Shown: piece after piece, positions 50,799 through 62,983 of the stretch | How positions within the stretch are numbered: the stretch's first letter is position 1 | Layout of the letters: each line of letters begins with the position of its first letter | DNA from: an uncultured Myxococcales bacterium | GTDB lineage: Bacteria; Myxococcota_A; UBA9042 | Reading direction: 5' to 3' | NCBI GenBank assembly: GCA_903896545.1 | Contig: CAITYF010000056.1 | Coordinates: forward strand, 1-64,000 | DNA length: 64,000 nucleotides | Notes under the pieces: model-generated | The model's input: the letters and a program-made list of their open reading frames with translations, nothing else | The model's database searches: none | What the model was told of the DNA's origin: nothing | Program-made: the position numbers and the translations under genes

Positions 50799-52739
50799 CT
50801 ACTCCTGTCCTGGCCAGGTCGCCCGCAGAAGCGCAAGCATCGCCGACGCGTCGGGGTCCTGTCGATGGCGTTCCACCAATGCGTGCGCCGCTTGCCGCAG
50901 ATCGGCGATTTCCGGGTGCGTGCGCGCCAAGTCCGCCAGGTGCTGCAGCGCTGCGAGCGGACGTCCGCCCTGCTCTGCCGCCGCGATCCCGTTCAGCGCC
51001 CACCGCGGCGAGTGCCACGGATCCGCTTGCACGAGCTGCGCCCACGCGAGCGCTTCCGGTTCGGCATCAGCAGCGACGCCCAGCGCGAAGCCGTCGACGC
51101 GCTGACGCTCCGCCAACCGCTTGGGTGACAAGACACGCACCGCCGCCCAGCCTTCAGGCCACTTGTGGCACGCCGTCGCCCAGTTCACCGCCAGCGTACG
51201 CGCCTGTACCGCGGCCTTCCGCACCGTCGCGAGCGTGCGCGCCAATGGCAGACCATCCTCACAACGACGCTCCGCTTGCGCCAACTGAAATCCCAGCGCG
51301 AGGGCGTCCAGATCCGTCGGCCGAATGGTCAGCGCTTGATTCAGAAAATAACGTGCTTCTGGCAACTGCCCGCGCCGCATGAGCGTGTACGCCAGATTGT
51401 GGTTCATGCGCAGCGACTGCGGCTGCAGCCGAACGCCGCGGGTGTACAGCGAGAGGTCGTTTGTCCACGCAGCAGCGTTCGCGGGCGTCTCGATCAGGCA
51501 AACCGCGAGCAGCACCAACGCCGGCAACGCCGCGACAACGGCGCGCAGTTTGGCGAACGGGAAACGCGGCAAGTGCAAGGCCATGAACAACGGCACTCCC
51601 AGACACAGCGACACCGACGGTGCAAAGAGCAGGCGATCGGCAAAAAGCGTCGTCGACGCAAAGAACAGGTTGGACACCGGCAGCCACGTCAGCACCGCCC
51701 ACGCAAGCGCCAGCATTCCCAGTTCACGCGGCGCCAGATCGTGTTCGTTCGCTGGCGGATTTTGCCGCGCAAGGTGCCACAAGAAAATCGCGGAGAGACA
51801 GATCGTCAGGAGCACGAGGGCGCCCGCCAGCACTTCCCCAGTCAGTTGCGTCACGGGGGGCCACGCGTTGAACGCGTAGTCGGGCGCCAGATCGGTCGGC
51901 CACAGCAGGTGGGAGACGGCACGCACGACGATCGCCAGCGCGCTCATCACGCGCACCGTCGCGGTCACGACGGCAAGCGGATTGTCGGCTTCAGAAATCG
52001 GCAGCGCGGACATCGGGCCAAATAGCCAATGACGCCAAGCCAGCCACGCGACGCCAACAAACGTCCACGCCACCAGAAGCGGGGCAAAACGTCGCAGCAG
52101 CCCAGGACGCGCAAGCGCCCACAGGAACGCGATGGGCAAGAGCATCAGCGGTTGTTCCTTGCTCCAAAGCGCGGCGGCAAACGCGAGCGTACCGAGAATC
52201 AGGCGAAGCGGCGTCGCGCGCTGAAGGCGGACAGCCAGCAGCACCTCGAACGCGGCGAGCTCAAAAAGCAGGGCCAGCAGTTCGGGGCGATACGCCACCT
52301 GAATGACGACTTCGGCGTGCGCTGGGTGCAGTGCGAACCACAGGCCACTCGCCAACGCGGTCAAACGTGCGGCCAGGTCGAGGTGCCAGAGCGCTGCCAG
52401 CCGGTAGACCAGCGTCGTCAGCCAAGCACAGGCAAGCGCGTAGAGCAGCAGGTCAGTCAGGTGGCGGGCGCGGCTTGAGTCCAGACCTGCGCCTTTTTCC
52501 ACCGCAAAAGTGAGCGTCGCGAGCGGACGGGAGAGGCGAATGTAGGCGTGGTCGGCGTCACCAAAATACGGCGCGCGCACGATCGCACCGAGGTCGAGCG
52601 GCCACTTCACCGCGGGGTGCTGCAAAAAGGCGGGCACGTCGTCCTGCACGAATTCCGCGCGCTGCGCCGCCGGACCGTAGACCGCGAGCACCGTCAGCGT
52701 CACGAGCAGCGGCGCGAGCCACGCGCGAAGGTCGCTCAT
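50799..52739 (-). CDS. Polytopic membrane protein with C-terminal TPR-like region (TMTC/DUF1736-like)
   Basis: Start MSDLRAWLAPLLVTLTVLAVYGPAAQRAEFVQDDVPAF at 52739; ~10 hydrophobic segments; C-terminal MNHNLAYTLMRRGQLPEARYFLNQAL; overlaps rodA by 4 bp. Confidence 0.8.
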   Translation of the reverse strand: MSDLRAWLAPLLVTLTVLAVYGPAAQRAEFVQDDVPAFLQHPAVKWPLDLGAIVRAPYFGDADHAYIRLSRPLATLTFAVEKGAGLDSSRARHLTDLLLYALACAWLTTLVYRLAALWHLDLAARLTALASGLWFALHPAHAEVVIQVAYRPELLALLFELAAFEVLLAVRLQRATPLRLILGTLAFAAALWSKEQPLMLLPIAFLWALARPGLLRRFAPLLVAWTFVGVAWLAWRHWLFGPMSALPISEADNPLAVVTATVRVMSALAIVVRAVSHLLWPTDLAPDYAFNAWPPVTQLTGEVLAGALVLLTICLSAIFLWHLARQNPPANEHDLAPRELGMLALAWAVLTWLPVSNLFFASTTLFADRLLFAPSVSLCLGVPLFMALHLPRFPFAKLRAVVAALPALVLLAVCLIETPANAAAWTNDLSLYTRGVRLQPQSLRMNHNLAYTLMRRGQLPEARYFLNQALTIRPTDLDALALGFQLAQAERRCEDGLPLARTLATVRKAAVQARTLAVNWATACHKWPEGWAAVRVLSPKRLAERQRVDGFALGVAADAEPEALAWAQLVQADPWHSPRWALNGIAAAEQGGRPLAALQHLADLARTHPEIADLRQAAHALVERHRQDPDASAMLALLRATWPGQE

Positions 52740-53866
52740 CGGCCCTTGCGCCGCGTGGCGATGTTGAGGAGGAAGCCCGCGCCCAAGAGGACGGTCAGCG
52801 CGGACGATCCGCCGTAGCTCAGGAGGGGCAACGTCACGCCGACAACCGGCAAGAGGCCGATCACCATGCCGGCATTGACGAAGAACTGCCAAAAGACCAA
52901 GCCGGCGACGCCGACCGCAAGGAGCGCGTCAAACCGTTCCTGCGCGTGGTCGGCTAAGTAGAGCGCCCACCAGACGAGACCCAGGTAGAGGCCAAAGAGG
53001 AAGATGCAACCGATGAGACCCCAGCGCTCGGCAAAACACGCCAGCGCAAAATCGGTGTGCACAAAAGGCACGTGGCGCAGCACGGAGACGCGGGCTTCAT
53101 CGTCGGATCGACCGGCGACGCGCCCGGAGCCGACCGCCCACAGGGCTTTTTCCGCCTGCCAGTTGTCACGGTTCGCGCCGCCTTGGCCCGTGTCCGGCGT
53201 CTTGTCGTCGTCCTGCATGGCGTGCCACCAGGTCTCGGCGCGGCCTTTTTGGTAGTCGCGGATGATGTCAAACTTCCAAGCGAGGCCAATCGCTACGAGG
53301 CTGATGCAAAACGCCAGCACGAGCGTGCGCCTTTGCACGCCGTCGTAGAGCAGTTGGCCAATCGCGATCGCCGCAACGCAGACCGATGTGCCCAGATCCG
53401 GCTCGCGGTTGATGAGCGCAACCGGTGCGCCCATGAGGAACACGGGGATGACGAGCTGCCGCAGCTTCCACGGCTCTTTGCTGCGCTTGGTATCGAACCA
53501 GTCGGCCAGCATCAGCGCGATCGATATCTTCATGAATTCACTGGGCTGAATGTTCGCCGGACCAAGCTCCAGCCAACGCTTGGAGTAGTTGATCTCGCGG
53601 CCAAAGAAGAGCACGGCCACCAGCAACACAACGAGCACGCCATACACCGACGGACTGACGCGGCGCACGAACTGCATGTCCAACCGCGACGTGACGCCAA
53701 GACCAATCAAGCCGATCACGATCCAGATCGTCTGCGAACGGTGGTAGGTCGTGCCGAGCATGGAGTCGGCAAAATGGAGGTTCTCAATCGCGATCGCTGA
53801 AAGCCCCAGCACGCAGAACAGCCCGATAAGCGTCGACGGCTGGCGAATGCGGGCGAGGACTGACAT
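52736..53866 (-). CDS. rodA: Rod-shape-determining glycosyltransferase RodA (SEDS family)
   Basis: 376 aa; RWLELGPANIQPSEFMKI; NREPDLGTSV; FVNAGMVIGLLPVVGVTLPLLSYGGSS. Confidence 0.95.
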   Translation of the reverse strand: MSVLARIRQPSTLIGLFCVLGLSAIAIENLHFADSMLGTTYHRSQTIWIVIGLIGLGVTSRLDMQFVRRVSPSVYGVLVVLLVAVLFFGREINYSKRWLELGPANIQPSEFMKISIALMLADWFDTKRSKEPWKLRQLVIPVFLMGAPVALINREPDLGTSVCVAAIAIGQLLYDGVQRRTLVLAFCISLVAIGLAWKFDIIRDYQKGRAETWWHAMQDDDKTPDTGQGGANRDNWQAEKALWAVGSGRVAGRSDDEARVSVLRHVPFVHTDFALACFAERWGLIGCIFLFGLYLGLVWWALYLADHAQERFDALLAVGVAGLVFWQFFVNAGMVIGLLPVVGVTLPLLSYGGSSALTVLLGAGFLLNIATRRKGR

Positions 53867-53878
53867 GAAACAGGGACC

Positions 53879-54637
53879 TCACGTCGCGGAGAGGAAGAAC
53901 TTGATGGTCATCACGACACCCGTCGCGATCACCAGCTGCCGCACGCGACTCGCATCGACGCGCTTGGCCAGCCGCGCGCCAAAATACCCGCCTGCGAGCG
54001 ATCCCGCCACCATGAGAAGCGCGGGACGCCACTCGACGATGCCCGCGAAGATGAACGTGACGACCGCGGCGGCATTGATGGCGGCGCCGAGGAGCGACTT
54101 CAGGCCGTTCATCGCGTGGATGTCGGTCAGCCCCGCGAGTGCGTACGTGGCGAGCATGAGGATGCCCATCCCGCCGCCAAAATAGCCGCCGTAGACGGAG
54201 ATCAAAAATTGGCCGGTGAGGAGCACACCCGGATGCAAAGTGCCGGTGTTGTGCGCGCGGAAATAGGCGACGGCGCGACCGGAGATGGCAAAAAGCGTCG
54301 TCGCGGTGAGCAGGAGCCAAGGGACGATGTGGGCAAAGGTTTCGTTGCGGGTCCAGAGCAGCAGGCGCGCGCCGAGAAAGCCGCCCACCACGCTGACCAC
54401 CGCCAGCTGGATGAGCTGCCGCCGCATGTGGTTCACGTCGTTGCGGTACGCCCACGTGCTCGCGAGGCTGCCCGGCCAGAGCGCGACTGTGCTGGTGGCG
54501 TTGGCGGCGATCGGCGCCAGGCCGCCCATGACCAGCGCCGGAAACGTGAAGAAGCTGCCGCCGCCCGCGACGCTGTTCAATGCCCCACCGATGACCGCCG
54601 CGCCGACGATCAACGTGTCTTGAGCGATTCCTGTCAC
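53879..54637 (-). CDS. TauE/SafE-family membrane permease
   Basis: 252 aa, GTG start overlapping the mrdA stop (GTGA); AAVIGGALNSVAGGGSFFTFPAL; GGYFGGGMGILMLATYAL. Confidence 0.88.
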   Translation of the reverse strand: MTGIAQDTLIVGAAVIGGALNSVAGGGSFFTFPALVMGGLAPIAANATSTVALWPGSLASTWAYRNDVNHMRRQLIQLAVVSVVGGFLGARLLLWTRNETFAHIVPWLLLTATTLFAISGRAVAYFRAHNTGTLHPGVLLTGQFLISVYGGYFGGGMGILMLATYALAGLTDIHAMNGLKSLLGAAINAAAVVTFIFAGIVEWRPALLMVAGSLAGGYFGARLAKRVDASRVRQLVIATGVVMTIKFFLSAT

Positions 54638-56997
54638 GGCAACACCTCGTCACCGGGCTCGTCGGGACCCTCGCGCGGCTCACCCGCCGGCCGATTCGCG
54701 GGGTCCTCTTCGTGCGGCACGGTCGGCGTCGACTCTGGATCGGTGATCGGCGTTTCGTCGAGTTCTTCTTGCGCGTTTGCAGCTTTCTTGCGGCCTTTGG
54801 CCGTCAGCGCCTCGCTCGGCTTTGTGTGCGGATGGCGCGCGAACCACGACTCGACGATCTTCACCGCAATCGGCGCCGCGTTGTGACCACCTGAACCGCC
54901 ATGCTCCACGAACACCGCGACGGTAATCTCCGGATCTTCCGCCGGCGCGTAGCCGACAAACCACGCGTGGTCGTTTTGCATCCACGTCGTCAGCCGCCCC
55001 AGCGCCAGCGGATCCGCCTTCAAGCGCTCGACCATCTCCGCGCGCGGGCGTTGCGCCGCCTGCGCCGTCCCTGTCTTGCCCGCCATCATCACGTTGGTCG
55101 GCTGGCTGCTGTACGCCGTGCCGCCTTCATCGTTCACGACCGCCAGCAGCGCGTTGCGAATGAACCGCAGCGTGGACGACTTCACCGGCAGATCGCGGCC
55201 TTCCGGACGCGGCAGTCGCGGCAACATTTTGCCATCGGGCCCTTCAAAGCCCTGCACCAGCGTAATGTTGGGCAGGATGCCGTCGCGACCCAGCGCCGAG
55301 TACACGCGCGCCACCTGTAGCGGCGTCGCCGTCACGTCTTTTTGCCCAACGGCCGTCGACAGCGCAAAACCGGGGTAGTAGCCGCCCTTGACGTGCTGCG
55401 CGTACCACTCGCGCGTCGGCAAGCGGCCCAGCGCCTCGTGGATCTCGATGCCAGTCGGTTCGCCGTAGCCCAGCTTGCGCGCCCACGCTTCGAGGCGATC
55501 CAGGCCGAGCAATTCGCCCAAGTGGTAGAAGTACACGTCACAGGATGAACGGATCGCCTCGCGCAAGTTGACGTCGCCGTGGCCGCGCTTGGAGTGGCAG
55601 TGAAAGCGCCGGCCGCCAAAGTCGTAGTAGCCGGGACAGTGAAACGTTGTCGTCGCGTTGACGATGTTCTCTTCCAAAGCGGCGATCGCCGCGACGATTT
55701 TGAACGTCGACGCTGGCGGAAACGCGTGGACGGCTTTGTCCAAGAGCGGCGCGTACGCGGCGGTGTCGGTCGACGTCTTGCCGTGCGGCGCGCGCTTACC
55801 GGACATCGTGTTCGGGTCGAAACTCGGCTTGGAATAGAGCGCCAGGACTTCCCCAGTGCGCGCGTCGATCACCACAGCCGAGCCGGAAAACACGTCCTTC
55901 ATTGCCACTTTTGCCGCACGCTGTAGCTCCAGATCCAGCGTCAGCCGCATCGTCAGCCCCGGCACCGTCGGGCGCGGCTCCAGTCCGGCGATCAGATCGT
56001 CCATCCCCTTCGCGCTTTCCTCATTGCCAGACCGCCGCACAACCACTTGCTCACCGTCGATGCCGCGCAGCGCCTGATCAAACGCGCGTTCCAGCCCCGT
56101 CTTGCCCACGCGATCGGTCAGCGCATAGCGCGACGGCAGCCACGGCAGGAGCGGCGCGCGGTCGGCGTCCGTCACGTAGCCGACGTAGCCCAGCAGGTGA
56201 CTGGCCAGGAACCGAAACGGGTACTCGCGCTGAATTTCTGACTGCAACCGCGCTTCGGGCAACAGGTGCAAATTCGCACGCAGCACCGCGACTTCGTCGT
56301 TGAACGTGCGCTGGCACAGCGGGCACTTCAGGTTGTGGTGGCCATGGTGGAGTGCGTGGTGGTCGTAAGGGCACTGCTCCGCCGTCGAGAATTCCCGCTC
56401 GCAGGACGAGCAGCGCAGTCCATCACCGGTGGAAATCGGCTGCAGCTTGCGCTGGTCAAACGGACACGCCTTCTTCGCGGGCACGGGCTCGAAATTGCGA
56501 CCGCAGACCGGGCAGAAACGGTATTCGACCTCGGACGTCAGTTCCAGCTGGCTCGAATCGTACGGACAGTGCGTCGACACGAGATCGCGGCGCACCACCA
56601 GCGGCTGGCGTTTGCGCGGATCGGCGTCCTTGAGCAACTCGGCGCGCAGCGACTCGACCTCGGCGTCGGTCATGTCCAGCAGTTCACGCAAGTGCGCCAC
56701 GATCGTCGCGATGCGGTCCGGTTTCACTTTCGCTGGCAAAAGTTCGAGCGAGTGGCTCTCCAGATTGCGCGCCAAAATCGTGCCGTCCGAGCCTTTGATT
56801 TGCCCACGCGGCGCTTGCGAACGGATCTTGCCGACGCGTTCAATCGTCGCGATCTTCTCGTAATTGGCGCCCATCACGCCCTGAACGATCACCAGACGCG
56901 CGATCAGCACCAGAACGGCGACAAAAACGGCAGCCATCGCCAAGCGATTGCGGGCGTGAAAGCGTTGCGCGTCATGGGAAGGGCCAAGGACTGTCAT
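54634..56997 (-). CDS. mrdA: Penicillin-binding protein 2 with Cys-rich zinc-ribbon-like insert
   Basis: 787 aa from MTVLGPSHDAQRF; active-site motifs FPPASTFKI (SxxK), SSCDVYFY, MMAGKTGTAQ; insert at aa ~144-235 (about 56293-56568). Confidence 0.93.
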   Translation of the reverse strand: MTVLGPSHDAQRFHARNRLAMAAVFVAVLVLIARLVIVQGVMGANYEKIATIERVGKIRSQAPRGQIKGSDGTILARNLESHSLELLPAKVKPDRIATIVAHLRELLDMTDAEVESLRAELLKDADPRKRQPLVVRRDLVSTHCPYDSSQLELTSEVEYRFCPVCGRNFEPVPAKKACPFDQRKLQPISTGDGLRCSSCEREFSTAEQCPYDHHALHHGHHNLKCPLCQRTFNDEVAVLRANLHLLPEARLQSEIQREYPFRFLASHLLGYVGYVTDADRAPLLPWLPSRYALTDRVGKTGLERAFDQALRGIDGEQVVVRRSGNEESAKGMDDLIAGLEPRPTVPGLTMRLTLDLELQRAAKVAMKDVFSGSAVVIDARTGEVLALYSKPSFDPNTMSGKRAPHGKTSTDTAAYAPLLDKAVHAFPPASTFKIVAAIAALEENIVNATTTFHCPGYYDFGGRRFHCHSKRGHGDVNLREAIRSSCDVYFYHLGELLGLDRLEAWARKLGYGEPTGIEIHEALGRLPTREWYAQHVKGGYYPGFALSTAVGQKDVTATPLQVARVYSALGRDGILPNITLVQGFEGPDGKMLPRLPRPEGRDLPVKSSTLRFIRNALLAVVNDEGGTAYSSQPTNVMMAGKTGTAQAAQRPRAEMVERLKADPLALGRLTTWMQNDHAWFVGYAPAEDPEITVAVFVEHGGSGGHNAAPIAVKIVESWFARHPHTKPSEALTAKGRKKAANAQEELDETPITDPESTPTVPHEEDPANRPAGEPREGPDEPGDEVLP

Positions 56998-57171: not shown

Positions 57172-58284
57172 ATGCGCCAAGTCATTGTTTCCGTTCTGGC
57201 TTCTTTGGGTCTCGTCGCTTGCGGTGCCAGCACCGGCGGCGGTGGCAGCGGCAACCCTTACGGCGTGACGCCAACGGATACCGTGGGTGGCATCTTGGAC
57301 GTCGCCTCGGACACAGGCTCGGTAGACGACACAGGCAAAGTCAGCGACACACCCACGGTCACAGACACCGTCCAGCCCGGTTCGCTCAAGACGTGTATCG
57401 CGTCGTCGCAGTGCGCCATCGACGCGTGCAAAGCCGCGTGGTCCGCAACGTGTGGTCAGACGTGCGCCAACGCGACCGCCAAGGAAGCCGCGCCGACCGC
57501 GTCCGCGCTGCTCGACTGCACGACCAAAAAGTGCCTCCAAGGCAAGTGCGCTGGCACCAGCCCGCCGACGCAGAAGTGCATGGACGACTGCACCGCTTCC
57601 GACTGCCCCAATGAACTCGTCGCCTGCTGGGAACAGGGCGGCACGCCCGGCACGCAGGGCTGCAGCACGATCCTCAACTGCCTCACCGGCTGCGACAGCA
57701 ATCCGCAGCGCTTCACCTGCCAGGCCGCCTGCTACAACGCCGTCAACAAGACCGGCGAGACGCAGTTCAAGACGCTCAGCACCTGCGTGAATGCCAACGG
57801 CGGCAAGGCAGACAAGTGCGTGAAGGAATCGCTCTTGTGCTTGTCGGATGGCAAGACCGGCAGCGGATCGTGCTACGACGTTCAGGCGTGCTTGGCCAAG
57901 TGCGCGACGGGTGACACGCAGTGCCAGGGCACTTGCTACGGCAACGGCAGCGCGACCAGCCAAACTCAACTCCTCACGCTGATGAACTGCGTCAATACCA
58001 GCGGCGCGGACAAGTGCCTCGGCGAGACGGTCACGTGCGCCACGCCAACGGGCAGCGTGGGTTGCGTCGACACGGCCACCTGCGTGACCGGCTGCGGCAC
58101 CGGCGCGACGCAAGCCGCGTGCGTGATGGACTGCTTGCACAAAGCATCGAGCGGCGGCGCCAGCGCGTTTGCGAAGCTCGCCCCGTGCGTGCAGAAGAAC
58201 TGCCCCGGCTGCACCGGCAGCGCGTGTCAGAACTGCGCCGCGAGCAAGTGCCTGAGCGACGCGCTGAACTGCAACAGCAACTGA
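57172..58284 (+). CDS. Cys-rich repeat lipoprotein
   Basis: Start MRQVIVSVLASLGLVACGAS (lipobox); Asp/Thr-rich linker; repeated Cys modules to the C-terminus. Confidence 0.8.
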   Translation: MRQVIVSVLASLGLVACGASTGGGGSGNPYGVTPTDTVGGILDVASDTGSVDDTGKVSDTPTVTDTVQPGSLKTCIASSQCAIDACKAAWSATCGQTCANATAKEAAPTASALLDCTTKKCLQGKCAGTSPPTQKCMDDCTASDCPNELVACWEQGGTPGTQGCSTILNCLTGCDSNPQRFTCQAACYNAVNKTGETQFKTLSTCVNANGGKADKCVKESLLCLSDGKTGSGSCYDVQACLAKCATGDTQCQGTCYGNGSATSQTQLLTLMNCVNTSGADKCLGETVTCATPTGSVGCVDTATCVTGCGTGATQAACVMDCLHKASSGGASAFAKLAPCVQKNCPGCTGSACQNCAASKCLSDALNCNSN

Positions 58285-58331
58285 CCGCTTTCTGTCGGCT
58301 GCCGCAAGGACTACACTGACGCCGCGATCGT

Positions 58332-60689
58332 GTGGATCGCGCAGGTCGTGTCGTGAAGTTGTGCGCGTTTGCGATTCTTCTGACTTCTACGCTCACCGCG
58401 TGTACGTCGCGCGTCGATGCACCGCCCGCCACGCACGTCGGCGTCGCGGGTGCGACTGAATTTCTCGCGATCGCTGCATTTTCCCCGCGTGACGTCGTCG
58501 TGCTCGCCTGTCCAGCCACGACTTCTGCCGATGCACGCTTGGCGTGTGGTGGTTCAGGTCTGGACTTCGCCGCGGACGTTTCGTCCGTCGATCTGCTGGT
58601 CAAGGCGCGTGAGCACCTGTTTGTGCGACAAAACGTGACGGGCGCGGTGGACTTGGATCTTCCCGCCTTGGCCGCCGCAGCAAGCACACCGGACTATGCG
58701 CGTGGCTTTGCCGCAACGGGTGAATCCGCATTTCTCGACTTTGCCTATCGCGCGGACACGGAGCTGGGCACGTCGTGGTCGGTCAAGTTCTACATTGCCG
58801 ACGTGCAAACCACGCCCAAGGTCTACTTTCAGAACACGCGCAAGCACCCGCTGCACTACACGTTTGCCCACGACGTGCTGGGCGTGCCGGGGAACGTCTC
58901 GGCTTTTGAGGCGGCGACCTACCACGGCGCGGATCGTCAGGCGATGGCCGGCACGCTGGTGTACTACCCGGATCTGCATCCACACGCTGCGGCGTTGCCA
59001 GGTGACGCGTCGGGCGTCGTGGCGCTGACGTTCTTTCCCAGCGATGACGCCACGCCAGCGCAGGTCGCACGCGCGCACGGAGCGATCGAAGAAGTGCTGG
59101 GCTTTGTGCCGCTGACGGGTGGACACAAGCGTCTGGTGTACGTGCCGGCGGGTTCAACGCAAGAAGCGCAAGCCGTGAGCGCGCCCGAACCGCTGCTGCG
59201 CCAAGGCGTGCCCGTGCTGACGCGCACGGAACTTTACGGCGGGCTGAAACAGCAGTTGCTCAATCCCGGCGTGGCTTTTGGCAAGCTGCAGCGGATCGAT
59301 CCGGACACGCTCGCGCACACGCCGGTTTCGCGCGGCGATGTGCTGGTGCTGACGCGGCTGCCGAATCAGGCGCCTCTTGTGGGCGGGACGATCACCGAAG
59401 AACTGCAGACGCCGCTGGCGCACGTCAACGTGGCGGCCCACACGCGTGGCGCGCCGAACATGGCGCTGTTGAACGCGGGCAGCGACCCGCGGATCGCGCC
59501 GCTTCTCGGCAAGTTTGTGCGCTTTGAAGTGGGCAAAGGCGTGTTCACGCTGCGCGAAGCGACGCTGGAGGAAGCGCAGGCGTACTGGACAAGCCAAGCG
59601 CGACCGCTCTATGTGCCGCCGCACGACGATGACACGAGCGATTTGCGCGATTTTGCCCAGCTTGGCTTTGCCGATTCGATCCGCGTCGGCGTCAAGGCAG
59701 CGAACTTGGCGGAGATGACGCACGTCCTGCCAGACAACACGCCGAAGGGCTTTGCCGTGCCGTTTCACTATTACGCGCAGTTCATGGCGACTGGGCAGGC
59801 AACGACGGCCACTTGTGATGCGGCGCGGACGAATTGCACCGACGAAGGACGGACTGCCGCCATTTGCGATGCCGCACGCGCACTGTGTCTACCCGCAGGC
59901 GTGACAGCGGAAGTGCTGACGGATCACGTCGGACGACTGCTCGCGGACGAGACCTTTGCGACGGACACCGCGTTGCGCGAAGCGGCGCTGGACAACTTGA
60001 ACGCGATCATGGCCGCGACGGCGATTGACCCGCAGCTCGCGACTGATCTCGATGCACGGGTCACGGGTTTGGCAGGGACGGCGAACGTGAAGCTTCGCTC
60101 GTCGACCAACAGCGAGGACCTACCCGATTTCAGCGGCGCGGGCCTCTATGAGTCGTACACCGCAACGGGCGCGGGGAGCAAAGCGGCGCACCTGCGGATC
60201 CGACTCGTGTGGGCTTCCGTCTGGACGTTTCGCGCTTTTGAGGAGCGTGAGTTCTGGCACATCGATCACAAGGCCGTGCGCATGGGCGTCCTCGTCCAGC
60301 CATCCTTCCCCGATGAACAGGCCAACGGCGTCCTAATCACCCAGAACCTCGCGGATCCGAACACCGTGGGCTACTACGTCAACGTGCAAAAGGGCGAAGA
60401 GTCCGTGACCAATCCGACGGGCGGCGAGCTCGCGGAGATCTTCAGTATTCTGCCGTCGCCCACTGGCCTGCAGGTCGCGCGATCGCGGTTCTCATCCCTT
60501 TCACCCGACGTGCCGCTGCTCACGCTGCCCGAAGTGACCGCGCTATTTGCCGCCGCGTACAAAGTGCAGCAACATTTTGCGCCGCTGTACGGCAAGGATC
60601 CGAGCCTGATGGCGCTCGACATGGAGTTCAAGTTTCACGGCCCGGAGCGCAAGTTGTTCTTGAAGCAGGTTCGACCATATCACCAGTAG
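58332..60689 (+). CDS. Lipoprotein with PEP synthase/PPDK-like domains
   Basis: CAFAILLTSTLTACTS lipobox; TPLAHVNVAAHTRGAPNMAL; VKAANLAEM..PKGFAVPFHYY; LRSSTNSEDLPDFSGAGLYES; start GTG 58332 or 58353. Confidence 0.8.
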   Translation: MDRAGRVVKLCAFAILLTSTLTACTSRVDAPPATHVGVAGATEFLAIAAFSPRDVVVLACPATTSADARLACGGSGLDFAADVSSVDLLVKAREHLFVRQNVTGAVDLDLPALAAAASTPDYARGFAATGESAFLDFAYRADTELGTSWSVKFYIADVQTTPKVYFQNTRKHPLHYTFAHDVLGVPGNVSAFEAATYHGADRQAMAGTLVYYPDLHPHAAALPGDASGVVALTFFPSDDATPAQVARAHGAIEEVLGFVPLTGGHKRLVYVPAGSTQEAQAVSAPEPLLRQGVPVLTRTELYGGLKQQLLNPGVAFGKLQRIDPDTLAHTPVSRGDVLVLTRLPNQAPLVGGTITEELQTPLAHVNVAAHTRGAPNMALLNAGSDPRIAPLLGKFVRFEVGKGVFTLREATLEEAQAYWTSQARPLYVPPHDDDTSDLRDFAQLGFADSIRVGVKAANLAEMTHVLPDNTPKGFAVPFHYYAQFMATGQATTATCDAARTNCTDEGRTAAICDAARALCLPAGVTAEVLTDHVGRLLADETFATDTALREAALDNLNAIMAATAIDPQLATDLDARVTGLAGTANVKLRSSTNSEDLPDFSGAGLYESYTATGAGSKAAHLRIRLVWASVWTFRAFEEREFWHIDHKAVRMGVLVQPSFPDEQANGVLITQNLADPNTVGYYVNVQKGEESVTNPTGGELAEIFSILPSPTGLQVARSRFSSLSPDVPLLTLPEVTALFAAAYKVQQHFAPLYGKDPSLMALDMEFKFHGPERKLFLKQVRPYHQ

Positions 60690-60699
60690 GAGACGTTTC

Positions 60700-61491
60700 A
60701 TGCGTAAGTTCAGCCTGATTTTGATGACGTGCGGACTTGCCGCATGTTCCAACAGCACCACCAGCAGCGGCAGCGATCCGGTGGACGCGACCATCGATGC
60801 CGCGACGGACGCCAGCGATGTGGCCGCGGACGTCACGGGGACCGACGCAGTGAGCGACGTCGCCGCCGATGTCGCGCCGGACGTGGCTCCCGATGTTGCG
60901 CCAGACGTCGCGCCAGACGTCGCGCCGATCGACGCAGCGGAAACGAGCAGCGGCGGCGAATACGGCTTTCCCGCCTACCGCAAATCCGTCGACACGAAGG
61001 TGACGTGCTCGCAGCCCGGACCGATGGCGACCGACGGCACGTTTCCGTACACCGACTGGCTCTGCACGTTCGAGGCAAGCGGCACCAAAGGCTACCTCTA
61101 CCTCGAGAACACGCCCAAGGACTGCGTTTGCATGATGAGCTGCTCGCCTGTGTTCACGACCAAGGGCTGGATCTCGGTGGGCGGCAAGGTCACCGAACTC
61201 AACCCGGTCAGCTACGACGGGGGTGGCAACCACAACAACGATAGCGTCGAGTTCGCTTACGGCGGCAAGGCCTACAAGGCGTATCACTCTTCATTCGGCT
61301 TTGGCTGGCGCAAGTGCCAGCCGATGGACTGTCTGCAGGTGGAAGACAAAATCGCCGGCACGGTGAGCGACGACGGCTGCACGAAAGAGCGCACGCTGCC
61401 GATCGCGTGTGTGCCGATCGATCCCGATGGTACGCACGCGCTGCTGAACGACACGTTCAAGCCGTGCGCGGGCGATCCGAACTACCCGTAG
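60700..61491 (+). CDS. Lipoprotein with (DVAP)n linker
   Basis: MRKFSLILMTCGLAACSNS lipobox; (DVAP)x5; Cys-containing globular C-terminus. Confidence 0.75.
   Translation: MRKFSLILMTCGLAACSNSTTSSGSDPVDATIDAATDASDVAADVTGTDAVSDVAADVAPDVAPDVAPDVAPDVAPIDAAETSSGGEYGFPAYRKSVDTKVTCSQPGPMATDGTFPYTDWLCTFEASGTKGYLYLENTPKDCVCMMSCSPVFTTKGWISVGGKVTELNPVSYDGGGNHNNDSVEFAYGGKAYKAYHSSFGFGWRKCQPMDCLQVEDKIAGTVSDDGCTKERTLPIACVPIDPDGTHALLNDTFKPCAGDPNYP
60868..60927 (+). repeat. In-frame 12-bp tandem repeat GAYGTNGCNCCN x5 (DVAP)
   Basis: Five consecutive 12-bp units inside the 60700 CDS. Confidence 0.9.
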
Positions 61492-61494
61492 CCG

Positions 61495-62013
61495 CTACTT
61501 CCGGCCGAGCAGTCCGGACCGATGCGGGTGCTCAAAGCGGCCAGTCACGCGATCCAGAAGACCAAACCACGGCGGCGCGACGAGCATCGTGATGAGCGCG
61601 AGTGGGAGCGCCATGCGCAGAACGTCGCCGTAGGCGTCAAAAGCGCGGTGGAAAACGGCTTCGAGGAGCAGAAAGACGACCGTCGCGGCGAGACTCAACG
61701 CCGCCGAAGTTGCCATCACGGGCACAGCGCTGCGGAGATCCACGCGCGGCTCCAGGAAACGACCGAGCAGCGCCGCGAGCACGCCGACCTCCGTGTAGAG
61801 CCCCACGGGCACGGACAGCGACAGACCGTCTTTCAAAAGACCAACCGTGAAGCCGACGAGCACCGCTGTGGGCGTGGAAGTCCGGCTGCCGGCGTAGAGC
61901 GCTGTGAGCAGCGCGACGTCGGGCGCAAAGAACTGGCTGTCGAAATGCCCCAGAAGCGGTGACAGCAAAGCCAGCGCGAGAAAGGCGAGAAGGATCCAGG
62001 CAAACGGCTTCAT
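61495..62013 (-). CDS. mreD: Rod shape-determining protein MreD
   Basis: Start MKPFAWILLAFLALALLSPL at 62013; small polytopic protein directly downstream of mreC. Confidence 0.85.
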   Translation of the reverse strand: MKPFAWILLAFLALALLSPLLGHFDSQFFAPDVALLTALYAGSRTSTPTAVLVGFTVGLLKDGLSLSVPVGLYTEVGVLAALLGRFLEPRVDLRSAVPVMATSAALSLAATVVFLLLEAVFHRAFDAYGDVLRMALPLALITMLVAPPWFGLLDRVTGRFEHPHRSGLLGRK

Positions 62014-62020
62014 CGGCTCC

Positions 62021-62983
62021 TCATGGCGGCGAATCCGGCGTGTTCGCTGGGTCGACTGTGCGTCGCGGTTTCCCAGGATCTGCTGGCGCTGCGGGTGCGA
62101 CGGGAGCAACGCCCGGTGCGGCTTCGGTGTCTGGACCGTGGTAGCCGGTCACGATCAACACTTCTTCGAGGGTCGCGTAGGACACCGCCGCCGCGAGGAC
62201 AAATTCCTGGTACGGACCGCTTTGCGTCGGTGCTGCATCGGCAATGTGGCCAATTTCCAGCCCCGCCGGAAATACGCGATCGTGGCCCGTCGTCAGCACA
62301 GCGTCGCCCGCTGCCAACGGCGTGCCGCGATCGAGCTTGTCCAAATGCACAAACTGCGCCGTAAATTCGTTGCGCTTGCCGTTGCCCTTCACCGAGCCAA
62401 TGACGCCTTTGCCCGGCACCGTCGCGTGCACCTGACTGCGTGCGTCCGTCACGAGCATCACGTCGGCGAAACCTTGGGACACGCGATCGATGCGCCCAAC
62501 GACGCCATCGTCCGTGATGACCGCCATGCCTTCCTTGATGCCAATCAGGCCGTCCGTGTCGATTTTGATCCGCATCACCTGAAAGAACTGCGACACGTCG
62601 CGCCCCAGCACGCGCGCGGGAACGGTCGTGAAGTCGCGGTGCTCCGCCTTGAACTCGCACAGCTCTTTGACGCGCTGCAGTTCCTCGCCGATCGCACGGG
62701 ACTTCAGCGCTTCACCGAGGAGCACGCGATTCTCGCGTTCCAGCACTTCCGCTCGCTCTTCGACTTTGGTCAAGAACACGTAGCGCGAAGCCGACTTGCG
62801 CATCGCTTCGATCGCGTCGTGGTTCAACTGCGTAAACGGCGACGTGATGGCCAAGAGCGCGCGCTCGACGAACGTCGACTCTGTCCGCGTCTTGCCGTGC
62901 CAGTACATCGACGCGATCGGCAGCACAAGCGCGAGCGTGAGCAGGATCGACTGGCGATAGCGGTTGAAAAGGTCGCGGATCAT
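62021..62983 (-). CDS. mreC: Rod shape-determining protein MreC
   Basis: 320 aa; N-terminal TM, coiled coil (LEREN..LLGEALKSR), beta domain GIKEGMAVITDDGVVGRIDRVSQGFADVMLVTD. Confidence 0.93.
   Translation of the reverse strand: MIRDLFNRYRQSILLTLALVLPIASMYWHGKTRTESTFVERALLAITSPFTQLNHDAIEAMRKSASRYVFLTKVEERAEVLERENRVLLGEALKSRAIGEELQRVKELCEFKAEHRDFTTVPARVLGRDVSQFFQVMRIKIDTDGLIGIKEGMAVITDDGVVGRIDRVSQGFADVMLVTDARSQVHATVPGKGVIGSVKGNGKRNEFTAQFVHLDKLDRGTPLAAGDAVLTTGHDRVFPAGLEIGHIADAAPTQSGPYQEFVLAAAVSYATLEEVLIVTGYHGPDTEAAPGVAPVAPAAPADPGKPRRTVDPANTPDSPP

Follow-up and report, generated by a model that had tools for sequence, protein, structure and literature searches.

The penicillin-binding protein PBP2 encoded in the window, the 64,000-nt stretch of DNA analyzed here, carries in the head of its pedestal a 91-residue insert with three CPxD and three CxxC knuckles. 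Comparison of PBP2 sequences indicates that this insert is real, old, specific to the class of Myxococcota to which the window belongs, and inherited vertically within that class. We favor, with moderate confidence, the overall explanation that it is a metal-stabilized β-arm on the pedestal head, with a structural role in docking or gating the elongasome.

The pbp2 gene and its neighborhood

Coordinates are positions of the window, and residues follow PBP2 numbering. The gene and its relevant neighbors are as follows.

54634–56997, minus strand: PBP2 (mrdA/pbpA), class B penicillin-binding protein of the elongasome, 787 amino acids (TIGR03423, PBP_dimer and Transpeptidase)
56878–56958, minus strand: single N-terminal transmembrane (TM) helix, residues 14–40 (hydropathy; AlphaFold2 helix 14–40)
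62021–62983, minus strand: mreC, upstream elongasome gene (PF04085, E 7.9e-29)
61495–62109, minus strand: mreD-like open reading frame after mreC (PF04093, E 0.006, below cut-off; position)
52736–53866, minus strand: rodA, partner glycosyltransferase, downstream of pbp2 (PF01098, E 3.2e-83)

The pbp2 reading frame runs on the minus strand from an ATG at 56997 to a stop codon at 54634–54636. Its product passed the curated PBP2 model TIGR03423 with 518.6 bits (cut-off 455), contains the PBP_dimer and Transpeptidase domains, and has the catalytic motifs STFK (430–433), SCD (485–487) and KTG (641–643). Hydropathy revealed only one TM segment, with a peak for scanning windows starting at residues 14–28 (next best, 1.36). 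Because PBP2 has this one N-terminal TM helix only, the insert should lie on the side of the active site, and its periplasmic location is a well-supported deduction from the sequence. An earlier, sequence-only reading of this DNA had likewise described a catalytic PBP2 with a single N-terminal TM helix and a periplasmic insert; the reversed topology that it named as a possible refutation finds no hint in the hydropathy.

The gene is linked to mreC and rodA, both over their cut-offs, and to the mreD-like open reading frame in the expected place, and mreC and pbp2 lie close by on one contig in most of the class. In the window genome, three plus-strand genes (57172–61491), encoding a Cys-rich lipoprotein-like protein, a PPDK_N-domain protein and a small lipoprotein-like protein, separate mreC/mreD from pbp2. 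A TauE/SafE sulfite-exporter-like gene (53879–54637, minus strand; PF01925, E 2.4e-41) is placed between the pbp2 and rodA genes and shares a few bases with the end of pbp2. A partner domain was also sought in MreC; the protein encoded here contains a single Cys and lacks an insert.

Sequence and position of the insert

The insert and its parts, with the pairing of the knuckles discussed below, are the following.

56299–56571, minus strand: putative zinc-ribbon insert, residues 143–233, pedestal head (sequence; conserved in the class, absent outside)
56557–56568, minus strand: knuckle 1, CPYD 144–147, predicted base rung with knuckle 6 (alignment, AlphaFold2 secondary structure, Cys-loss test)
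56503–56514, minus strand: knuckle 2, CPVC 162–165, predicted middle rung with knuckle 5 (alignment, AlphaFold2, Cys-loss test)
56455–56466, minus strand: knuckle 3, CPFD 178–181, predicted tip rung with knuckle 4 (ligand search, AlphaFold2, Cys-loss test)
56401–56412, minus strand: knuckle 4, CSSC 196–199 (ligand search, AlphaFold2, Cys-loss test)
56362–56373, minus strand: knuckle 5, CPYD 209–212 (ligand search, AlphaFold2, Cys-loss test)
56314–56325, minus strand: knuckle 6, CPLC 225–228 (ligand search, AlphaFold2, Cys-loss test)
56260–56295, minus strand: head segment EVAVLRANLHLL, residues 235–246, directly after the insert (alignments to solved PBP2s)

The 91 residues, with the knuckles CPYD, CPVC, CPFD, CSSC, CPYD and CPLC in this order, follow the head strand LVVRRDL and precede the head helix EVAVLRAN. 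The TIGR03423 model does not span them, and once they are removed, alignments to solved PBP2s cross the site unbroken. The description given in the sequence-only reading was accurate: its interval of 56293–56568 on the minus strand corresponds to residues 144–235 and the stretch it quoted, HCPYD...RTFN, to residues 143–233; there are exactly nine Cys (144, 162, 165, 178, 196, 199, 209, 225 and 228); and CPxD-x3-L and CxxC-x3-F hold for all three repeats. At an assumed Cys content of 1.2%, the chance of nine or more Cys in 91 residues is ~2e-6, and chance is ruled out more strongly because about 40 orthologs, each assembled independently, have the knuckles conserved.

Between knuckles 5 and 6, the segment HHALHHGHH (residues 213–221; 56335–56361, minus strand) contains six His, and a cluster this rich is found only in the genus of the window (L005–L009).

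Metal ligands and redox setting

Ligands were counted in 27 distinct intact three-ribbon and 13 one-ribbon sequences, with the last position of CPxD left free in the search. The fourth ligand of the 94 intact CPxD knuckles was Asp in 91 and His in three, with no other residue, and the His cases are all knuckle 3 (CPVH), in L020, L022 and L023. Each rung, that is, each pair of knuckles, has three Cys, an odd number, and one Asp or His, which is the signature of a metal site rather than of disulfides; the exchange of Asp for His is likewise sensible for a metal ligand and not for disulfides. The ligand sequences thus strongly suggest that the insert binds metal. Its zinc-ribbon nature is well supported at this level, and the metal is probably zinc.

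VKOR is encoded in 51 of the 52 class genomes, and DsbB in none of the 52. Given the presence of VKOR in the class, the periplasm is probably oxidizing, a compartment in which a bound metal would shield the thiols of the insert.

Members of the zinc ribbon fold group have two facing CPxC-type knuckles per metal; the six conserved knuckles of the insert, each CPxD or CxxC, are predicted to face each other in this way. Among the curated ribbon families, Zn_ribbon_6 reached 17.8 bits (cut-off 25) and the others also remained below their cut-offs. Rad50_zn_hook was the only family to exceed its own cut-off, with the window insert alone and around the CPxC motifs. The Rad50 zinc hook is dimeric and has one CxxC only, at a coiled-coil tip; the insert has six knuckles, is β-rich and has no predicted coiled coil, and we rejected this match as a local CxxC similarity. 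Matches to C2H2 fingers and HypA were set aside in the same way, being local to CxxC, as were the zinc fingers returned with weak E-values by a sequence search of solved structures, which were driven by composition.

The transpeptidase domain contains a second, separate candidate.

55540–55638, minus strand: zinc-site candidate C454, C467, H473 and C486 (of SCD), transpeptidase domain (conservation)

These residues are conserved across the class and in outgroup Myxococcota (L098–L101), and they present the combination typical of zinc class B PBPs, namely a Cys in SxN/D, a His, and two Asp/Cys in a β-hairpin. They appear to constitute a candidate zinc site that is ordinary for the group: zinc sites of this kind are on record for A. 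baumannii PBP2 (PMC9974482) and for the class B PBPs PBP2, PBP3 and SpoVD of C. difficile (PMC9334274). The zinc class B PBPs of these two species resemble the window PBP2 in their periplasmic zinc, but theirs is a single site in the transpeptidase domain, whereas the window protein has three more predicted sites on a separate pedestal arm.

Arrangement of the knuckles

Two AlphaFold2 runs, one on the whole protein and one on the insert alone, used 18 fairly similar sequences as input and no zinc, and were read as secondary structure and pLDDT. Both gave the same secondary structure, with a pLDDT of ~80–92 in the insert. Unbroken strands extend from knuckle 1 to 2 (152–161) and from knuckle 5 to 6 (217–224), and the sole clear turn, at 188–193, falls between knuckles 3 and 4. 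The strands and the single turn would place knuckle 1 beside 6, 2 beside 5, and 3 beside 4.

Four relatives with eroded inserts (L030, L033, L032 and L096), which have kept the flanks and the length and lost ligands, bear on this pairing. With nested pairing, each of their decayed rungs either lacks Cys or retains a single Cys in each of its two knuckles. Decay of rungs as units should leave every rung intact, empty, or with one Cys in each knuckle, and 1.6/2.5/3.4 is the only one of 15 possible pairings under which all four sequences are free of orphan Cys. The chance of an orphan-free outcome, calculated with one of the sisters L030 and L033, is 0.008 for the pairing preset by AlphaFold2 and 0.11 for any pairing. 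Because we fixed the criterion with the alignment already in view, and because L030 and L033 are sisters, we regard this test as support and not as proof. From the models and the Cys losses together, we infer a probable ladder with knuckles paired 1.6/2.5/3.4.

The same motifs could instead form tandem zinc ribbons paired 1.2/3.4/5.6, produced by simple triplication of a Trm112-like ribbon and serving the same structural role. The one-ribbon form found in related families, CPxD-x13/14-CPxC, resembles each of the units CPxD-x14-CPVC, CPFD-x12/15-CSSC and CPYD-x12-CPLC, and weak matches to Trm112p occur in 10 of 20 members. In addition, L027 and L080 have insertions (+5 and +14, respectively) between knuckles 1 and 2, which count against a plain strand there and would also fit a hairpin turn. 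However, AlphaFold2 places no turn between knuckles 1 and 2 or 5 and 6, and the tandem pairing leaves seven sites with an orphan Cys in the four eroded sequences. We therefore consider tandem ribbons unlikely: of the three repeats noted earlier, the motifs stand, while the predicted fold and the Cys losses favor nested rungs over three separate ribbons. The insertion in L080 is rich in His and Lys (HDNHRHKHKKKRSDAG).

A Foldseek search with the insert model gave the zinc region of PriA as the best neighbor, at a non-significant level (E 0.027, TM 0.26), and the 50 matches listed for the full model were all PBP structures, with nothing on the arm. The Cys-rich region of the PriA helicase holds two nested zincs. 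Its knuckles are nested, as is predicted for those of the insert, but PriA is a cytoplasmic replication protein with two sites, all Cys.

Distribution and inheritance

Within the family of the window, the full insert is present in every relative with a recovered gene (20 genomes including the window's own, L005–L024). Across the 52 genomes of the class, the three-ribbon form, intact or eroded, occurs in families f1, f2, f3, f6, f7, f8, f9 and f11, and the one-ribbon form CPxD-x13/14-CPxC occupies the same site in families f5 and f10. Insert identity among lineages is 28–77%. In a PBP2 tree built without the insert residues, the one-ribbon group is a clade (support 100/99) and the eroded forms have at least three separate origins. 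One class member, L031 (f4), has no insert, so the insert has been dispensable at least once. As L031 branches among three-ribbon members, secondary loss is likely, on a tree that gives this genome a long branch and resolves the base of the class poorly.

Among 327 genomes sampled from elsewhere in the phylum, the knuckles were covered by none of the PBP2 matches listed. The one-ribbon profile matched 110 outside genomes, where the listed PBP2 matches begin no earlier than the end of the last knuckle. An insert general to distant PBP2s, which the sequence-only reading had named as evidence against itself, is therefore not what we found: it is absent from more than 100 PBP2s elsewhere in the phylum, and none of the solved PBP2 structures that we aligned contains it. 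A scan of 85,462 species representatives yielded 17 loci, almost all of them labeled as uncultured Myxococcales, Deltaproteobacteria or Proteobacteria; it relied on two peptide patterns, near the insert end and just after it, and so covers other phyla incompletely. One record, L039 (CAMDBH010000014.1), is titled as a Klebsiella pneumoniae MAG and has a clearly myxobacterial pbp2; it is probably mislabeled.

Comparison with known proteins and possible origin

The PBP2/MrdA proteins of E. coli, A. baumannii, H. pylori and T. thermophilus resemble that of the window in the single TM helix, the pedestal of anchor, head and linker, and the transpeptidase motifs, and have in common with it the mre operon and the RodA partner. 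The difference from solved PBP2s is the insert, which in the window protein sits between a head strand and the next helix and is absent there. In the open-access papers searched, we found no relevant account of zinc ribbons in PBPs.

The likeness to myxobacterial Ser/Thr kinases drawn in the sequence-only reading is borne out by L130, a kinase from the same family with CRSCGRHY...CPHDHNRL at its N-terminus. Membrane-tethered proteins of other Myxococcota (L122–L129) have C-terminal arrays of CPxCGRxF...CPxDGxxL units. The arrays of L122–L130 are built from the same types of knuckle, those with Asp as the fourth residue among them, but they are cytoplasmic or C-terminal to a TM helix, consist of CxxC-x10-CPxD units with long linkers, and do not belong to PBPs. 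Their spacing is x10, compared with x12–13 and x9, or x13–14, in the PBP2 inserts. Recruitment from such kinase or membrane-protein arrays is plausible, because the same knuckle types occur in them; among the L122–L130 arrays, no direct ancestor was found.

Proposed role and alternatives

MreC of H. pylori engages the head of PBP2 by way of a zipper that includes Tyr127 and Tyr134, and the anchor swings open (PMC5626683). Opening of RodA–PBP2 activates polymerization and crosslinking (PMC10257715), and MreC defects can be bypassed by pedestal changes (PMC6207328). By an approximate mapping based on numbering, the segment EVAVLRANLHLL corresponds to the H. pylori PBP2 region holding Tyr127 and Tyr134, and the insertion point lies at most ~15 residues from the zipper residues. 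This proximity to the MreC zipper led us to propose a rigid docking arm that extends the head. The vertical inheritance of the insert in the class and the mreC–mreD–pbp2–rodA setting of the gene also speak for such a role. The six knuckles would form three nested C3D zinc sites, at the base (1+6), middle (2+5) and tip (3+4), and the one-ribbon form of the sister families would correspond to the base site only. The arm would lengthen and stiffen the head beside the face that MreC binds in other bacteria. There it would most likely dock or gate MreC, RodA or an elongasome partner peculiar to the clade, and so bias the closed-to-open switch of RodA–PBP2; contact with MreC or RodA, and an effect on activity, are what we infer from this position. 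Zinc would be mainly a staple of the arm. Replacement of zinc by disulfides is suggested by the repeated decay of the ligands while the insert is kept, with Cys left in facing pairs, and some lineages seemingly made this exchange.

The eroded relatives also help to weigh the docking arm against other explanations. A zinc or redox sensor would bind zinc weakly, and zinc loss or thiol oxidation would alter the arm and throttle RodA–PBP2. We leave it a small but real chance, given that the C3D sites would be exposed outside the membrane in a compartment that the near-universal VKOR (51/52) makes probably oxidizing, and that control by zinc or redox state has been suggested for zinc PBPs of other bacteria (PMC9334274, PMC9974482). 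A sensor should, however, keep its sites, whereas at least three lineages have lost ligands and yet retain the insert, and the number of rungs varies; nor was a linked regulatory gene found. Retention of the insert by ligand-depleted relatives argues for a structural role over obligatory zinc or redox sensing. We consider it unlikely that the insert is a periplasmic zinc-dependent elongasome switch, in which rung-by-rung zinc loss or oxidation would alter the length or stiffness of the arm and thereby set RodA–PBP2 activity, and the one- and three-rung forms would differ in set point. The metal- or redox-responsive control of the elongasome put forward in the sequence-only reading is supported by none of our results. 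Its other proposal, a docking module, is the better of the two, since the insert is kept after ligand loss.

A metal-free module held together by disulfides would suit the periplasmic location, the presence of VKOR and the pairable Cys of the eroded relatives, but it leaves unexplained an odd number of Cys (nine) and rungs that combine three Cys with an invariant Asp or His, and we judge it very unlikely. Highly improbable, in our view, is a neutral ornament of the clade that has persisted through inertia: the erosion seen in several lineages and the loss in L031 would agree with it, but in the other lineages the ligands are almost invariant across a deep divergence (28–77% insert identity).

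Significance

PBP2 is an essential drug target under intense study, and it is through MreC that its pedestal controls RodA. The docking arm that we favor would be a class-wide, inherited addition at this control point, found without rungs, with one or with three, and also in naturally ligand-depleted forms. The insert would be an unusual multi-site zinc-ribbon domain outside the cytoplasm, in which disulfides seem to have replaced zinc naturally, and should interest specialists in both the elongasome and metalloproteins. Its rung variants offer a ready-made experiment on how pedestal geometry relates to elongasome activity.
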